A DNA stretch of 33,488 bases from Acidobacteriota bacterium (lineage in GTDB: Bacteria > Acidobacteriota > Terriglobia > Terriglobales > Acidobacteriaceae): assembly GCA_021781495.1 (NCBI GenBank), contig JAJXWS010000036.1:1014-34501 (forward strand), read 5' to 3'. Position numbers and translations under genes: made by a program. Under the pieces are notes generated by a model, which was not told the DNA's origin, searched no databases, and saw only the letters and a program-made list of their open reading frames with translations. Below are positions 11,407 to 16,878 of the stretch, piece by piece; positions within the stretch are counted from its first letter, which is position 1, and each line of letters starts with the position of its first letter.

Positions 11407-11685
11407 ATGCAAGCACTCACTGCAGAGGAGGCCGCACAGCGCCTCAAATCCATTCCCGCGTGGCAGATTGAGCAGGGCGCGCTGGTGCGCGTCTTTGCGT
11501 TCGCAGATTTTCGCGCGGCGCTGGCTTTTGTGAATCAGGTTGGCGCGCTGGCAGAGGATGCCGGCCATCATCCTGACATCGACATTCGTTACAACCGCGT
11601 TCGGCTTGCGCTGGTGACGCACGATGCTAACGGGCTGACCGCGAAAGACTTTCACCTTGCATCGGCGGCGGATGCGCTGGTCTGA
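11407..11685 (+). CDS. phhB: 4a-hydroxytetrahydrobiopterin dehydratase (pterin-4a-carbinolamine dehydratase)
   Basis: The 92-aa protein has the PCD active-site pattern EDAGHHPDIDIRYNRVRLALVTHD, with paired His, Pro and a later His-Asp. This motif dehydrates the 4a-carbinolamine formed by aromatic amino acid hydroxylases and so helps regenerate tetrahydrobiopterin. Length matches the family (about 95-105 aa). AAAAGGAGA lies upstream of the ATG at a good distance. No phenylalanine hydroxylase gene is in the window, and stand-alone PCD genes can have other pterin roles, so the physiological partner is unknown. Confidence 0.92.
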   Translation: MQALTAEEAAQRLKSIPAWQIEQGALVRVFAFADFRAALAFVNQVGALAEDAGHHPDIDIRYNRVRLALVTHDANGLTAKDFHLASAADALV

Positions 11686-11720
11686 TGCGTGCGCGGCACG
11701 GCGTGGCTGCGCACTTTTTG

Positions 11721-11749
11721 TTGACCCTCCACCGTGGTAACGCTATACT
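11721..11749 (+). promoter_or_regulatory. Sigma-70 type promoter of the sulfate-assimilation operon
   Basis: TTGACC at 11721-11726 and TATACT at 11744-11749 are separated by exactly 17 bp, five of six matches to consensus in each hexamer. Transcription should start at 11756 or 11757, which is at the ATG of the cysteine-rich leader ORF. This is the best promoter match I see in the window. Confidence 0.8.
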
Positions 11750-11756
11750 CACAGAC

Positions 11757-11825
11757 ATGAGTTTGTACTCCACTCCGGCCCTTTGTTGTGCATGTTGTTG
11801 TGCACTGCGCCGGACTGTGGGGTAA
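11757..11825 (+). CDS. Cysteine-rich leader peptide (22 aa), probable attenuator ORF
   Basis: A 22-codon ORF runs from the ATG at 11757 to the TAA at 11823-11825. Residues 10-15 read Cys-Cys-Ala-Cys-Cys-Cys, all five encoded by TGT, within a peptide that is otherwise Ala, Leu, Thr and Arg rich. The predicted transcription start falls on or one base before the ATG, so the ORF would be translated from a leaderless mRNA without a Shine-Dalgarno sequence. It is followed by a strong intrinsic terminator and then by cysDN-cysH. By analogy with amino-acid operon leaders, and with the leaderless Cys-rich uORFs described in mycobacteria, ribosome stalling at the TGT run when Cys-tRNA is low would control read-through. 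The peptide itself probably has no other function. The ORF is directly visible; the regulatory role is inferred. Confidence 0.75.
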   Translation: MSLYSTPALCCACCCALRRTVG

Positions 11826-11862
11826 GCACGCCTTAACTCAGATCGATTTTTCCCCCCAGGCC
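11775..11862 (+). promoter_or_regulatory. Attenuator pairing segments (pause hairpin and antiterminator)
   Basis: Two exclusive structures can be drawn. A pause-type hairpin pairs CCGGC (11775-11779) with GCCGG (11809-11813) and GTGCA (11788-11792) with TGCAC (11801-11805), enclosing the Cys codons. The alternative pairs 11812-11822 (containing CTGTGGGG) with 11852-11862 (containing CCCCCCAG): nine base pairs with two mismatches. The second pairing takes up the first two bases and flank of the terminator stem, so it could act as antiterminator when a ribosome stalls on the Cys codons. This is drawn by hand, not by an energy calculation. Confidence 0.5.
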
Positions 11863-11902
11863 CGCGCTGCAGATTCTCTGCCGCTGCGGGTTTTTTCTTT
11901 TT
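11861..11902 (+). terminator. Intrinsic terminator in the cys operon leader
   Basis: The outer stem CCCGC (11861-11865) pairs with GCGGG (11886-11890). The inner stem GCAGA (11869-11873) pairs with TCTGC (11877-11881) around a TTC loop. An interrupted T-tract of eleven T in twelve bases follows at 11891-11902. It lies before, not after, the structural genes, 58 bp ahead of the cysD start codon, as expected for a transcriptional attenuator. Confidence 0.8.
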
Positions 11903-11959
11903 CTGCACAAAAAAACACAGTGAGGGTTGTATGGCAGCAATGCTGCAGGAGGCCAACGC

Positions 11960-12868
11960 ATGACGGCTCAGAACCGGCTCAATCACATTCAGTTGCTCGA
12001 GGCCGAGAGCATTCACATTCTGCGCGAGGTGGCCTCGGAGTTTCAGAAGCCTGTGATGCTCTACTCCATCGGCAAGGACTCGTCGGTGATGTTGCGCCTT
12101 GCACAGAAGGCCTTTCATCCGGGCCCCATCCCGTTTCCGCTGCTGCACGTTGACACCGGATACAAGTTTCACGAGATGCTTGAGTTTCGTGACCGCCTGA
12201 CCAGCGAACTGGGCGTCAAGCTCATCGTGTGGCGCAATGAGGAGGCGCTGGCGCAGGGCGCGAATCCGGTCAAGCTGGGCACGCAGCGCTGCTGCGGACT
12301 GCTGAAGACGCAGGCCCTGCTGGATGGCCTGCGGGCGCATGGATTCGATGCGGCCTTTGGCGGCGCGCGCCGCGATGAAGAGAAGTCGCGCGCCAAGGAG
12401 CGCATCTACTCCTTCCGTGACAGCGCGGGCCAGTGGGATCCCAAGAACCAGCGGCCCGAACTGTGGAACCTCTTCAACAGCCGCATCGGGCCCGGCGAAA
12501 GCATCCGCGTCTTTCCGCTCTCCAACTGGACGGAGCTGGATATCTGGCACTACATCCACCTGGAGAACATTCCCATTGTGCCGCTCTATCTGGCCAAGGA
12601 GCGCCGCATGCTGGTCCGCGGCGACAGCCTCATTCCTGTGGAGCAGTCGTTTGTGCAGGGACTGCCCGGAGAAGAGCAGTGGGTCAAGTGCCGTTTGCGG
12701 TCGCTCGGTTGCAGCCCTTGCACCGGCGCCATCCGCTCGGATGCGGACACGGTGCCGAAGATTATCGAAGAGCTGATGGGCATGCGGAACTCCGAGCGCG
12801 CCAATCGCGTCATCGATCACGACCAGGACGGTTCCATGGAGCTGAAGAAGCGCGAGGGATATTTCTAG
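11960..12868 (+). CDS. cysD: Sulfate adenylyltransferase subunit 2
   Basis: The 302-aa protein is the catalytic PP-loop subunit of ATP sulfurylase, which activates sulfate to adenosine 5'-phosphosulfate (APS). The PP-loop is [10 protein letters not shown] at residues 35-44. Family blocks follow: [45 protein letters not shown], and near the end [11 protein letters not shown] placed the start at the ATG 11960, which has AGGAGG seven bases upstream. An upstream in-frame TTG at 11927 would overlap leader sequence and has no good ribosome binding site. A 10-codon ORF (11931-11963) ends in an ATGA overlap with this start. cysN follows immediately (TAGATG), giving the usual CysDN complex. Expression is probably controlled by the upstream cysteine attenuator. 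Confidence 0.96.
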
Positions 12869-14533
12869 ATGATCTTTGCAGAGGAACAGACTGTGAATGG
12901 TGCGGATGTGGCCAAGGATACCGCGCACGCATCGATTGAAGCGCTGCTGGAGGCGGAACGCGCCAAGGACCTGCTGCGCTTCAGCACCGCGGGCAGCGTG
13001 GATGATGGCAAGTCAACCCTGATTGGCCGCCTGCTGTACGACTCGCGCAATGTGTATGAGGACCATGTGCGGGCCGTGACGCGCGACGCCGCAATTGATT
13101 TTGCGCAACTGACGGACGGCCTGCGCGCCGAGCGCGAGCAGGGCATCACGATCGACGTGGCCTACCGCTACTTCTCCACGGCCAAGCGCAAGTTCATCAT
13201 TGCGGATACGCCGGGCCACGAGCAGTACACGCGCAACATGGCCACCGGCGCTTCCACAGCGGATGTGGCGATTGTGCTGGTGGATGCGCGCAAGGGCATT
13301 CTGGATCAGACGCGCCGCCATGCCTGCATTGCGTCGCTGCTGGGCATACCGATTGTGATTGCGGCCATCAACAAGATGGACCTCGTCGAATTTTCGGAGG
13401 AGGTGTTTGAGCGCCATCGCCAGGCGCTGCTTGAGCTTGCGCATCGCCTTGAGATCCCCGAGCTGATTGCGGTTCCGGTCAGCGCGCTCGACGGCGACAA
13501 CATTGTGCATCGCAGCGAGCGCACGCCGTGGTACAGCGGCCCAAGCCTGCTGGAGCTGCTGGAAACCGTTCCGCTGGCCATTGAGCGATCCAGCGCCGGA
13601 CTGCGATTCCCGGTGCAGCGCGTGGTTCGCCCGCACCAGGACTTCCGCGGCTTTGCCGGACAGATTGCAGCGGGCACCGTTCGCCCGGGCGACGAGGTGG
13701 TTGCACTTCCGTCGGGACGTCGCACGCGAGTGCGCTCGATTACGACGTGGGAAGGCGAGCTGGAATTGGCGCACGCGCCGCAGTCGGTCGTGCTCACGCT
13801 GGAGGATGAGGTCGACGTTAGCCGCGGAGAGATGATTGCGTCTGTCACCGATGCTCCGCACAGGACCAGGCATTTTGAGGCAACCGTGGTGTGGATGCAC
13901 GGCACGCCGTTGCAGCCGGGCATGACCTATATGCTGAAGCACACCAGCCAGACCGTGCGCGCGCGCGTGGTGGAGATCCGTTCGCGCATCCACGTAGACC
14001 ACCTGGAACACCGCCCCGCCGAACAGTTGGGACTGAATGACATTGGGCAGCTGGTGATTGAGACGAGCCTGCCGCTGCTGGCGGATGTCTATCGCGAGAG
14101 CCGCGCCACGGGCAGCTTTATCCTCATCGACCCAACCGACAACACCACGGCCGGTGCGGGAATGATTCGCAGCATCGCCGACACGGAGGAAGGCGCGACC
14201 CCGATCAATCGCGCAACCCGTGGATTGATTGCTGTCGGGAATCGTCAGGAGCTTGCCGCGGAGTTGGAGAAGTCTCTGCTGCAGGCGGGTGCGCTGGTGC
14301 TTCGGACGCGCGTGCCGGTTTCCGCATCCCTGGTGACCATCGCCCGCATCGGTGCGGTGGTGCTGGTCGAAAGCGACGCAAGCGATCCGGTGACGCTGAC
14401 GCGGGTGGATGTGGCGAATGCCCAGCCGCGCGAGCTGGCATTCGATCATCCCGATGAAATTCTGAACGAACTGCAAAGCCTCGGAGCCCTTCCGACTGGA
14501 GACGATGAGAATGACAACGGCCTTGGTATCTGA
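12869..14533 (+). CDS. cysN: Sulfate adenylyltransferase subunit 1 with extended C-terminus
   Basis: This is the GTPase subunit that drives APS synthesis by CysD. G-motifs are GSVDDGKST (residues 42-50), DTPGHEQYT (113-121) and NKMD (168-171), followed by EF-Tu-like beta-barrel domains with RPHQDFRGFAGQIAAG. At 554 aa it is longer than single-domain CysN (about 475 aa in E. coli) and shorter than CysNC fusions (about 615-640 aa). The extra 100 residues after INRATRG resemble a shrunken APS kinase domain (an ELAAELEKSLLQAGALV helix), but the GLSGAGKST-type P-loop is absent, so kinase activity is not expected. The gene starts directly after the cysD stop. The downstream CysH appears to use APS, so loss of the kinase would be tolerated. 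The tail's origin is an inference. Confidence 0.93.
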   Translation: MIFAEEQTVNGADVAKDTAHASIEALLEAERAKDLLRFSTAGSVDDGKSTLIGRLLYDSRNVYEDHVRAVTRDAAIDFAQLTDGLRAEREQGITIDVAYRYFSTAKRKFIIADTPGHEQYTRNMATGASTADVAIVLVDARKGILDQTRRHACIASLLGIPIVIAAINKMDLVEFSEEVFERHRQALLELAHRLEIPELIAVPVSALDGDNIVHRSERTPWYSGPSLLELLETVPLAIERSSAGLRFPVQRVVRPHQDFRGFAGQIAAGTVRPGDEVVALPSGRRTRVRSITTWEGELELAHAPQSVVLTLEDEVDVSRGEMIASVTDAPHRTRHFEATVVWMHGTPLQPGMTYMLKHTSQTVRARVVEIRSRIHVDHLEHRPAEQLGLNDIGQLVIETSLPLLADVYRESRATGSFILIDPTDNTTAGAGMIRSIADTEEGATPINRATRGLIAVGNRQELAAELEKSLLQAGALVLRTRVPVSASLVTIARIGAVVLVESDASDPVTLTRVDVANAQPRELAFDHPDEILNELQSLGALPTGDDENDNGLGI

Positions 14534-15191
14534 AGAACTCGTCCGCACAACGGTTGGATTTCTCCGCGACCGCCTTGCCGGCGCAGAGCAGGTCTGCGTC
14601 ACCAGCAGCTTTCAGGCAGAGGATGTGGTGGTGCTGCACATGGTTCGGCAGATTCTGCCGCAGGTTCCGGTGCTCTTTCTGGAGACGGGCTATCACTTTC
14701 CGGAGACGTTGGAGTATCGCGACCGCATGGCAGCGGAGTGGAAGCTGAATCTGATCAACGTGGAGCCGGAGATTACGGTGGCGCAGCAGGAGTCGCAGTT
14801 CGGCATTCTGCACCAGACGGCTCCCGACCGCTGCTGCGGAATTCGCAAGGTGGAGCCGCTCTTCCGCTCGCTTGCGAACTACAAGGTGTGGGTGACGGGG
14901 CTGCGCCGCCAGCAATCCAAGTCCCGCGCCAACCTGCAGCCGGAAGAGAGCTTCGCGCTGCCCAGCGGGCACACGCTGGCAAAGCTCAGTCCGCTGACGG
15001 AGTGGACCACGCGCGATGTGTGGTACTACGCGCAGGAGCATCAGATTCCGCTGCTGCCGCTGTATGAGCTCGGTTACACGAGCATCGGATGCGCGCCGTG
15101 CACGAGTTTGCCCTTTGACCCCGATGATCCGCGCTCCGGGCGCTGGTCGGGCCGCAAGCTGGAATGCGGCATTCACGTGCAACCCTCGTAA
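14511..15191 (+). CDS. cysH: Assimilatory adenylyl-sulfate (APS) reductase, Fe-S type
   Basis: The 226-aa enzyme reduces activated sulfate to sulfite. It has the PP-loop fold start SSFQAEDVVVLHM and ETGYHFPETLEYRDR. Two cysteine pairs, Cys108-Cys109 (DRCCGIRK) and Cys194/Cys197 (GCAPC), bind a [4Fe-4S] cluster, and the catalytic Cys219 sits in the C-terminal ECGIH. The four cluster cysteines mark the APS-using bacterial type rather than the PAPS-using E. coli type that lacks them. I prefer the ATG at 14511 because GGAGA is eight bases upstream; the ATG at 14505 is too close to it. The start lies inside the end of cysN (about 23-bp overlap), indicating translational coupling. Electrons normally come from thioredoxin. 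Confidence 0.94.
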   Translation: MTTALVSEELVRTTVGFLRDRLAGAEQVCVTSSFQAEDVVVLHMVRQILPQVPVLFLETGYHFPETLEYRDRMAAEWKLNLINVEPEITVAQQESQFGILHQTAPDRCCGIRKVEPLFRSLANYKVWVTGLRRQQSKSRANLQPEESFALPSGHTLAKLSPLTEWTTRDVWYYAQEHQIPLLPLYELGYTSIGCAPCTSLPFDPDDPRSGRWSGRKLECGIHVQPS

Positions 15192-15205
15192 AGCTGGAGA
15201 ATGCA

Positions 15206-15970
15206 GTGGAACTTTTGCTGGGCTTTCTGATTGCCGCACTGATTGCGATGACCGGCATGGGCGCGGGCACCGTTACGGCGCCCCTGCTCATCCTGTTTCT
15301 GCACGTGCCGGTCTCCATTGCGGTGGGCACGGCCCTGGCGTATTCGGCGGCGGTCAAGCTGGTGGTTGTTCCCGTGCAGGTTTGGCGGCGCACGGTGGTG
15401 TGGCGCACGGTGGGCGTCATGCTGCTGGCCGGCGTGCCGGGCGTTGTGCTGGGCACCATGCTGCTGCGCCGCATCGCCAGCAACCGGGGCAACTCCATCT
15501 GGCTCTATCTTGCGCTGGGCAGCATGATTGCGCTTTCGTCCGCGTGGCATGTTTACAGGCACTTTCGTCCGGCGCGCGTGGCCGAGGGGCGCCGCTACCG
15601 GCCGGGATGGCTGGCCGCAGCCATGTTTCCTGTCGGTATGGAGGTGGGCTTCTCCTCCTCCGGAGCGGGCGCCCTGGGAACGCTGGCCCTGCTTGGCCTT
15701 ACAAACCTGGAGGCGGCGCAAATCGTGGGCACGGACCTGAGCTTTGGCCTGTGCCTTTCGCTGATCGGCGGCGGACTGCACCTGAGCTATGGCGGCTTTG
15801 ATGCGGCGGTGCTCAGCCGGCTGATCATTGGCGGCATCTTCGGCGCGGTGGCGGGCACCTCACTTGCGCCGCGCGTTCCGGCCCGTGCCATGCGGCTTGC
15901 GCTGTCGCTCAGCCTGCTCGCTATCGGGATGCAGCTTTGCTGGCGCGCGCTGGCGCAGGCGCACATTTAG
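15206..15970 (+). CDS. TauE/SafE family membrane permease
   Basis: The 254-aa protein has about seven or eight predicted membrane helices. It opens with LLGFLIAALIAMTGMGAGTVTAPLLIL, the glycine-rich first repeat of TauE/SafE proteins, and has a second such repeat near the middle (GMEVGFSSSGAGALGTLALLG). Members export sulfite or sulfoacetate or move related sulfur anions at the inner membrane. Its place directly behind cysH, 14 bp after the stop, argues for a role in handling sulfite or sulfate, but direction and substrate are inferred. The GTG at 15206 is preceded by GGAGA at 15196-15200; the ATG at 15164 would overlap cysH and add 14 polar residues. Confidence 0.85.
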   Translation: MELLLGFLIAALIAMTGMGAGTVTAPLLILFLHVPVSIAVGTALAYSAAVKLVVVPVQVWRRTVVWRTVGVMLLAGVPGVVLGTMLLRRIASNRGNSIWLYLALGSMIALSSAWHVYRHFRPARVAEGRRYRPGWLAAAMFPVGMEVGFSSSGAGALGTLALLGLTNLEAAQIVGTDLSFGLCLSLIGGGLHLSYGGFDAAVLSRLIIGGIFGAVAGTSLAPRVPARAMRLALSLSLLAIGMQLCWRALAQAHI

Positions 15971-16080
15971 CCTGCATCCAGCGCATTTCGCTGCGCCGGG
16001 CTTGCCCGCATCGCGTCCTGCTGGCGATACTGCCATTGGCGCCGGTTCGGGCCGCATCTTCCCGCAAGCGAGATATCCTT

Positions 16081-16878
16081 TTGGCGCGCGAATACGACAC
16101 GGCACGTCTGGTCCGCAAAGAATGCATCTCAGAGCAGACCCAATGCTTTCACTTCGAGTTCGTTCTGGAAGGAAGGCAGGACTTCCTGTTCACGCCGGGC
16201 CAGTTCGTTTCCTTTGTGGCGAACGATGCTGACGGCAAAGAGCAGACCCGCGCCTACTCCATCGCGTCGGCTCCGCGCGGCAACCGGTTTGATCTCTGCA
16301 TTAACCGCGTGGGAGCGGGCTTTTTCTCAAATCATCTGATTGATCTTGCCGCTGGCGACAAGGTTCGGATGCACGGGCCCTACGGGTACTTCACCCTGCG
16401 CGAGCCCATCACGGACTCGATCCTGATTGCCACCGGAACGGGCATCGCGCCCATGCGGGGATTTGTGCAGTGGCTGTTCCCGGCCGACGGAACGGACCGG
16501 AGCGAAGGCAAGGACATATGGCTGGTGGAGGGCACGCGCCACGCAGGCGACCTCTACTATCGCGAGGAGTTTGAGACGCTGGCGGCCCGCAAGCCCAACT
16601 TCCACTATCTGCCCACGCTGAGCCGCGCCGAGGAGAGCTGGCCCGGCCTGCGCGGTTACGTGCAGGAGCATGTGGCCCGCATTGTGGAAGAGCGCGCGGC
16701 GCGCCTGGGGCAGCCTTTGCCCGTGCCGCCGCTGGACCCGGCCACGCCCAGGGATGCGATGCGGTTTGACATCCATGCCTACATCTGCGGGCTGAACAAC
16801 ATGGTCAGCGCGGTGCGGGAGCGGCTTGTGCGCTTTGGATGGCACCGCAGACAGATCGTCTTTGAGCGCTACGACTGA
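16081..16878 (+). CDS. FAD-dependent ferredoxin-NADP(+)/flavin reductase family protein
   Basis: The protein (about 265 aa from the TTG at 16081) has the two-domain FNR layout. The FAD-binding barrel has RAYSIAS at residues 57-63 and GPYGYF near 99-104. The NAD(P)-binding domain has ATGTGIAPMRGFVQW from residue 117, HAYICGLNNMV late, and the terminal VFERYD. Such enzymes pass electrons between NAD(P)H and ferredoxin, flavodoxin or another partner. As last gene of the sulfate-assimilation cluster it may supply reducing power for sulfite reduction; no sulfite reductase is in the window, so this is an inference. The start is uncertain. The frame is open back to 15937 inside the TauE gene, but the upstream residues do not look like the family, and TTG 16081 lacks a clear ribosome binding site. 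Confidence 0.85.
   Translation: MAREYDTARLVRKECISEQTQCFHFEFVLEGRQDFLFTPGQFVSFVANDADGKEQTRAYSIASAPRGNRFDLCINRVGAGFFSNHLIDLAAGDKVRMHGPYGYFTLREPITDSILIATGTGIAPMRGFVQWLFPADGTDRSEGKDIWLVEGTRHAGDLYYREEFETLAARKPNFHYLPTLSRAEESWPGLRGYVQEHVARIVEERAARLGQPLPVPPLDPATPRDAMRFDIHAYICGLNNMVSAVRERLVRFGWHRRQIVFERYD

Follow-up and report, generated by a model that had tools for sequence, protein, structure and literature searches.

The cysD locus and its leader

The window, i.e., the whole stretch of 33,488 nucleotides that was analysed, lies on contig C41 of a 3.6 Mb genome. By CysD, the closest named relative was Acidobacterium sp. S8 (89%), followed by Granulicella sp. dw_53 at 87%. Both are members of the Acidobacteriota, a widespread soil phylum, and on this basis the genome was assigned to that phylum. 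In each of the two, cysD is preceded by a Cys leader with a terminator, in sequence unlike that of the window. Within the window a short Cys-rich open reading frame (ORF) was followed by genes of sulfate assimilation:

11407-11685, pterin-4a-carbinolamine dehydratase gene, upstream of the cys promoter
11689-11714, + strand, terminator-like hairpin 3' of the dehydratase gene (9 pairs, 7 of them GC, then TTTTTGTTGA)
11721-11749, + strand, sigma-70-type promoter TTGACC-17-TATACT (-35 TTGACC, 11721-11726; 17 bp; -10 TATACT, 11744-11749)
11757-11825, + strand, leader ORF of 22 codons, MSLYSTPALCCACCCALRRTVG, with Cys at codons 10, 11, 13, 14 and 15 and TAA at 11823-11825
11948-11952, + strand, GGAGG, probable Shine-Dalgarno site of cysD, read from the sequence
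11960-12868, + strand, cysD, sulfate adenylyltransferase small subunit (TIGR02039, 447 bits, above cut-off)
12869-14533, + strand, cysN, sulfate adenylyltransferase large subunit (TIGR02034 and NF003478, above cut-off)
14505-15191, + strand, cysH, phosphoadenylyl-sulfate reductase family (NF002537, above cut-off; PF01507)
15164-15970, + strand, TauE/SafE family permease (PF01925)
15937-16878, + strand, FAD/NAD-binding oxidoreductase (PF00970 and PF00175; no NCBIfam match reached its cut-off), perhaps the final gene of the operon

A preliminary description of this DNA, made from the sequence alone, had named cysD, cysN and cysH downstream of the leader, and the NCBIfam and Pfam matches bore this out. 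The leader directly preceded the biosynthetic operon cysD-cysN-cysH-tauE, as expected of an attenuator. The promoter elements (TTGACC, 17 bp, TATACT) and the 22-codon ORF with Cys-Cys-Ala-Cys-Cys-Cys at residues 10-15 were likewise present as first described. Promoter-like sites numbered two in 1 kb, compared with 0.2 in shuffles. The hairpin at 11689-11714 probably separates the dehydratase gene from the cys promoter, in a setting where shuffles gave 1.4 terminator-like sites per kb; because of this hairpin the leader probably starts a separate transcript.

A TTG at 11927 is a possible alternative start of cysD. Between 11927 and 11963 cysD seemed to lack an N-terminal extension found in relatives. 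An ATG at 11931 matched the relatives' cysD start by eye and opened a 10-codon ORF, the TGA of which overlapped the cysD ATG at 11960. The missing extension is either a real change or an assembly indel.

Leader start and Cys codon choice

The leader ATG stood only 7 nt past the -10 hexamer, which leaves no room for a Shine-Dalgarno site, so the leader mRNA should be leaderless. Twenty loci, the window included, were grouped by their leader as type A, and TTGACC was found in all 20. The ATG followed the -10 hexamer by 6-8 nt in 19 of the type A loci and by 11 nt in one; in the sir leaders described below the distance was 5-8 nt in all 28 loci with a candidate, of 30 (L293 lacked a recognised gene start, and L320 yielded no candidate), leader starts having been picked by best promoter score, which favours neat spacing. 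This spacing suggests that the ORF is translated without a leader. A survey puts leaderless genes at an average of 13.3% in three Acidobacteria genomes (PMC3160421).

All five Cys codons of the window leader were TGT (UGU in the RNA), a codon that occurred at none of 38 Cys positions in seven nearby genes, sir and cysG (Fisher 1e-6). Over 54 loci, UGU made up 199 of 276 Cys codons in leaders and 8 of 254 in cysD. The preference may be due in part to RNA structure.

Conservation of the leader among relatives

Twenty-two loci encoded a CysD at least 89% identical to that of the window, and 19 of them (window included) had a type A leader with a terminator. Two others (G172 and G242) had another Cys leader. 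The last (G137) had none before cysD and carried a Cys leader before a reductase gene about 3-4 kb upstream of cysD on the same strand.

Across the family, a short ORF with at least three Cys in six codons was found in 105 of 132 distinct cysD upstream regions and in 18 of 775 control windows drawn from the same loci, counts that are inflated by the relatedness of the loci. With at least two Cys in six codons the corresponding numbers were 125 of 132 and 152 of 775. The seven regions below that level were L160, L180, L187 (masked), L201, L202, L210 and L211. L201 and L202 were second cysD copies without a Cys leader in two genomes of the genus. Not counted among the 132 were L120, which was too short, and six loci that matched named records exactly; five of these six had at least two Cys in six codons and one (L009/L092) had one. 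In a wider set, such a Cys-rich ORF was present in 117 of 164 loci; dinucleotide shuffling left 6.7, and the opposite strand gave 10. The upstream regions compared included another 80 stretches taken from part of the CysD places listed. Among loci with less similar CysD, 3 of 48 had a Cys-rich ORF. By these sequence comparisons, the Cys run before cysD is beyond chance across relatives.

A hairpin with a T-run of -16 kcal/mol or lower occurred in all 20 type A loci (in a scan without a shuffle control), and the five core pairs of the terminator, CCCGC/GCGGG, were identical in all 19 aligned type A leaders. The comparison of cysD upstream regions that had been proposed as a check on the attenuator idea therefore found both the Cys codons and the terminator kept, the former in 105 of 132 family regions and the latter in 20 of 20 type A loci. 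Most type A peptides had the CCACCC run and a following RR in common; by eye, peptides of different clades shared little beyond their Cys runs.

Outside the class, 5 of 10 cysD loci returned had a Cys-rich ORF and a terminator-like hairpin, in sequence unlike that of the window. L336, L338, L341, L342 and L344, from other classes of the phylum, showed Cys-rich ORFs and CCCGGG-type terminators before cysD.

Terminator and alternative stems

The predicted pairing segments of the leader were:

11758-11763, + strand, 5' half of the helix that closes over the start codon, its partner being 11835-11840
11766-11779, + strand, segment 1; pairs with 11809-11824 as the pause hairpin (1:2) around the Cys codons
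11798-11823, + strand, segment 2, the 3' half of the ORF; its partner is segment 1 or segment 3
11835-11840, + strand, 3' half of the closing helix; pairs with 11758-11763
11852-11873, + strand, segment 3, the antiterminator partner; from 11858 it is the 5' arm of the terminator
11858-11893, + strand, intrinsic terminator stem-loop (3:4), core 11861-11890, -20 to -22 kcal/mol
11891-11902, + strand, terminator U-tract

An intrinsic terminator with a T-tract had earlier been placed at 11861-11902, and both the stem (11858-11893) and the tract (11891-11902) were found there. Three terminator-like sites were counted in 1 kb, compared with 1.4 in shuffles, so the terminator scan alone was not significant. 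The 80 nt holding the terminator folded with a z-score of -2.0, and 7 of 200 shuffles folded equally well. The computational fold of the whole leader, named in the preliminary description as a further check, reached -55.9 compared with -39.9 in shuffles (sd 3.6, z -4.4).

The full antiterminator duplex, 11798-11823 with 11852-11873, was valued at -26.7 kcal/mol without loop cost and overlapped 14 nt of the terminator's 5' arm. The shorter pairing first put forward, 11812-11822 with 11852-11862, is only the outer half of this antiterminator; it folds beside the terminator and does not dissolve it. In type A leaders, seven bases starting with the U of the AUG paired with the strand past the stop codon. 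This 7-bp closing helix was paired in 95.2% of cells of the 19 type A leaders, compared with 16-48% in slid controls, and its covariation in those leaders was not above that of shuffles. If the helix is real, its formation would bar further ribosomes from the 5' end.

No Rfam leader or riboswitch family reached its gathering score in the leader, and the whole window gave only a tRNA. The Rfam model Trp_leader scored 15 bits where 41 were needed.

Covariation was measured on an alignment of 19 type A leaders (L133 left out). The 1:2 hairpin had 91.7% of its cells paired, and 13 cells showed changes on both sides. The number of cells paired, the number changed on both sides and the covariation score were each above all 500 shuffles; the other two of five measures lay within the shuffles (pairs changed on both sides, 254/500; pair types, 486/500). 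The hairpin around the Cys codons that had been described at the outset was recovered as 11766-11779 with 11809-11824, with covariation. For 2:3, a partner-swap test on the 19 leaders took the stretch of segment 3 that precedes the terminator core. Segment 2 paired with its own partner at -9.94 and with swapped partners at -8.45 (sd 0.30; p 5e-5, the lowest value that 20,000 permutations allow), and the result was the same with 15 rows, four near-identical leaders having been left out. From the 1:2 shuffle test and the 2:3 swap test together, both of which ignore relatedness, segment 2 covaries with two partners, the kind of compensatory change that had been proposed as a check on the alternative stem. 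The terminator helix showed no covariation in the 19 leaders. Among 58 loci picked by a hairpin below -12 kcal/mol 20-65 nt past the stop, the antiterminator averaged -20.4 with own partners and -16.5 with swapped partners, and 29 of the 58 did better than shuffles at 0.05. For 1:2 and 2:3, sequence comparison supports a scheme of pause, antiterminator and terminator stems that exclude one another.

Ribosome-position model

Capture of the terminator's 5' arm by the leader was modelled in 19 leaders with the ribosome at successive codons, the footprint edge being assumed to lie 15 nt past the first P-site base. The mean probability of capture was 0.71-0.73 with the A site at codons 4-13 and fell to 0.67 at codon 14, 0.52 at 15, 0.38 at 16, 0.21 at 17 and 0.11 at 23; the mean without a ribosome was 0.35. 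In the model, capture would be lost as the ribosome passes codons 14-17. A stall on the Cys codons was not separated by this model from an earlier stall in the ORF: given the level capture over codons 4-13, any stall no later than codon 13 would suffice.

In the modelled equilibrium after complete transcription, most of the 19 leaders favoured the terminator, also when a ribosome stood on the Cys codons; its lowest mean probability was 0.61, and in the window it was 0.99-1.00. Since the terminator wins at equilibrium, antitermination would have to be kinetic, with capture before the 3' arm is made. Minimum-energy folds with the ribosome at the first Cys codon gave the extended antiterminator in two of eight leaders (L084 and L087).

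A second leader type in the sister clade

A type B leader, with 22-23 codons and a peptide of the CC(C/R)LSNIFDGC kind, was present at 46 loci of the genus and family. L126 fitted the type and gave no cysD start; 45 of the 46 were aligned (L183 left out). One example lies on the minus strand of L090 at 2452-2632 (A2 alignment). The hairpin at the Cys codons of type B leaders was strongly conserved and nearly invariant, and their consensus fold showed only a hairpin next to those codons. Most were without a canonical terminator, their hairpins being weaker than -12 kcal/mol except in L219 (and in L200, outside the 46). With type B considered as a possible translational switch, helices 2:3, 3:4, 4:5 and anti-Shine-Dalgarno were paired in 92%, 70%, 88% and 89% of cells, respectively, with little covariation. 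Modelled access to the Shine-Dalgarno site was 0.27 at best and 0.19 with the ribosome near the stop, a weak effect.

Cys leaders before a reductase gene and other genes

The same genome carried a second Cys leader, MEFRPCCRHCSPLRAHR, with a hairpin of -29.7 kcal/mol, on contig C106 (L284, 1-4501), before the gene of a 565-aa sulfite/nitrite-type reductase that was followed by cysG. The protein had Pfam NIR_SIR domains and NCBIfam matches that were all below cut-off, and its best solved relative was 1zj8, deposited as a probable ferredoxin-dependent nitrite reductase NirA. The cysG neighbour and the Cys leader suggest that the enzyme acts on sulfite, and the gene is called sir here on that reading. 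It was found in 70 of 79 genomes of the genus. Among the best 30 sir loci, 29 were examined; 28 had at least three Cys in six codons and 27 had a terminator-like hairpin (without a separate control). The antiterminator swap test was not significant for these sir leaders (p 0.29, n = 27).

A search with model R1, built on the type A cysD leaders with short calibration and strict filters, matched 30 of 150 family genomes at E 0.01. By their downstream proteins, the 30 loci comprised 4 cysD, 20 (and probably L265) reductase, 1 cysH, 1 YeiH-like transporter and 3 unclear loci, the reductases having the N-terminus seen in that of the window's genome. Altogether, 27 of the 30 preceded a cysD, reductase, cysH or YeiH-like gene (L265 only probably). 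A CCxCCC pattern occurred at four other places in the window's genome, by eye inside longer genes, and R1 reported none of the four.

In L274 and L290 a Cys-rich leader, MKQNLTTVANACCMCCCMPRCCAGVCLL, and a terminator-like hairpin stood before a YeiH-like transporter gene, which had the Pfam domain Cons_hypoth698 and an NCBIfam match below cut-off.

Proposed mechanism and alternatives

The leader is very probably a ribosome-mediated transcription attenuator that reads charged tRNA-Cys. The cysteine-responsive attenuator of the preliminary description is supported, at the level of sequence, by the kept Cys codons, the terminator and the covarying alternative stems. Judging from the promoter spacing, transcription would start at the AUG or a nucleotide or two from it, and ribosomes would load on the 5' end. 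With ample Cys-tRNA, the ribosome would pass the UGU run and cover segment 2; segment 3 would then pair with segment 4, and RNA polymerase would stop at the U-tract before cysD. With scarce Cys-tRNA, the ribosome would wait on the first UGU codons, covering segment 1 and leaving segment 2 free; the free segment 2 would capture segment 3 and with it the 5' arm of the terminator, ahead of synthesis of the 3' arm, and cysDNH would be transcribed. With no ribosome, the 1:2 hairpin and the conserved helix over the start codon would let the terminator form. The transcription start, the stalling, the read-through and the cysteine response of this scheme are all predicted.

The leaderless Cys-rich ORF resembles the mycobacterial polycysteine ORFs described below, and stalling on it might alter access to the cysD ribosome-binding site by translational attenuation or coupling, with the hairpin and T-tract having no regulatory part. 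Type B, which keeps the Cys leader mostly without a canonical terminator, fits this explanation. It is nonetheless improbable for the window, as every one of the 20 type A loci had a GC-rich hairpin with a U-tract, and segment 2 shows covariation with the strand that directly precedes the terminator. Another alternative is a promoter-proximal terminator under other control (Rho, a protein, or stalling under redox or metal stress), with the Cys run serving only as the stall site, and a Cys-rich nascent peptide could conceivably respond to other stresses. Against such control, which we consider quite improbable, Cys codons recur by eye in leaders otherwise unlike in sequence, R1 also found leaders before sulfur genes (the 27 of 30 loci, L265 probably among them), and the window leader uses UGU, absent from nearby genes.

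The ORF might instead encode a functional small Cys-rich protein, e.g., a metal-binding one, beside an incidental terminator. The CCACCC run and RR of most type A peptides would suit such a product, yet it is scarcely credible: across clades the peptides look alike in little beyond the Cys runs, and the type A stretch past the run covaries as RNA with two partners.

The attenuator reading can be extended, tentatively and as something plausible rather than probable, to assimilatory sulfate reduction in Acidobacteriota at large. This process may be run via a Cys-tRNA-reading regulon of leaderless leader peptides before cysDNH, reductase-cysG and sometimes cysH or a YeiH-type transporter. The leaderless AUG would itself be part of the switch: the conserved 7-bp helix joining the 5' end to the region past the stop would close the start site when about 84 nt had been made, and cysteine status would thus be reported only by ribosomes that load close behind RNA polymerase. 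Within one genus, Cys leaders would drive a terminator or, in the sister clade, a terminator-poor and probably translational output.

Relation to known leaders

In the trp, his and leu attenuators, a leader peptide rich in the end-product amino acid is combined with alternative 1:2, 2:3 and 3:4 stems and an intrinsic terminator. The window leader has by sequence the same codon run, alternative stems and terminator, and differs in its cysteine signal, its apparent leaderless initiation and its lack of an Rfam leader match. These features support the view that it works like a trp-type attenuator, the response to cysteine itself being predicted.

In mycobacteria, short leaderless Cys-rich ORFs precede cysA2, Rv0485 and nirA (Shell 2015, PMC4633059). 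Cysteine-dependent attenuation is known from M. smegmatis (Canestrari 2020, as described in PMC9031893, PMC13236596 and PMC9094748), and the polycysteine control has been termed translation attenuation (PMC13236596). The window leader is like these in having a Cys-rich ORF, leaderless by its promoter-ATG spacing, before sulfur genes; it differs in its conserved intrinsic terminator and antiterminator and in its phylum. Cys leader peptides with Cys-codon runs before cys operons were predicted in Actinobacteria in 2005, where no conserved terminator hairpins were found, the Mycobacterium cys leaders included, and a role of Rho was called a "rather weak prediction" (PMC1262725). Because a terminator is present, the window leader is not of the mycobacterial kind as described in these sources. 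In the motif uORFC-8-2, a stem holds tandem Cys codons of a uORF, and after it comes a U-run that would fit an intrinsic terminator; the motif is reported exclusively before cysS of Rhodobacterales, with UGC as the dominant codon (PMC8632094). The Cys-codon ORF, stem and terminator-like U-run are shared, whereas the leaders described here precede cysDNH and reductase-cysG of Acidobacteriota and have longer Cys runs, UGU codons and a probable leaderless start.

No report of such a cysteine attenuator in Acidobacteriota was found in the open-access literature searched, as far as its accessible text goes. A 2010 paper describes the attenuators predicted in phyla such as Acidobacteria as almost all without associated functions (PMC2965389). 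Earlier reports of cysteine attenuation concern translational control in mycobacteria and a motif upstream of cysS in Rhodobacterales. New here are a probable cysteine transcription attenuator on core sulfate-assimilation operons of Acidobacteriota, with leader ORFs that appear leaderless, and a leader that uses a Cys codon its neighbouring genes do not. Signs of exchange between terminator and non-terminator layouts within one genus offer a natural series on how attenuator output changes.

Other promoter-proximal start codons

Across 79 genomes a promoter-plus-ATG pattern occurred at 26 places, of which type A cysD leaders accounted for 10, and a reversed control pattern at 10 places; the forward pattern misses the window leader, where the -10 is TATACT. 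L225 (genome G031) and L247 (genome G103) shared an identical promoter-to-ATG stretch, TTGACCAATATATGCCATTGGCATATAGTTTTTCTATG, which perhaps marks another leaderless gene.
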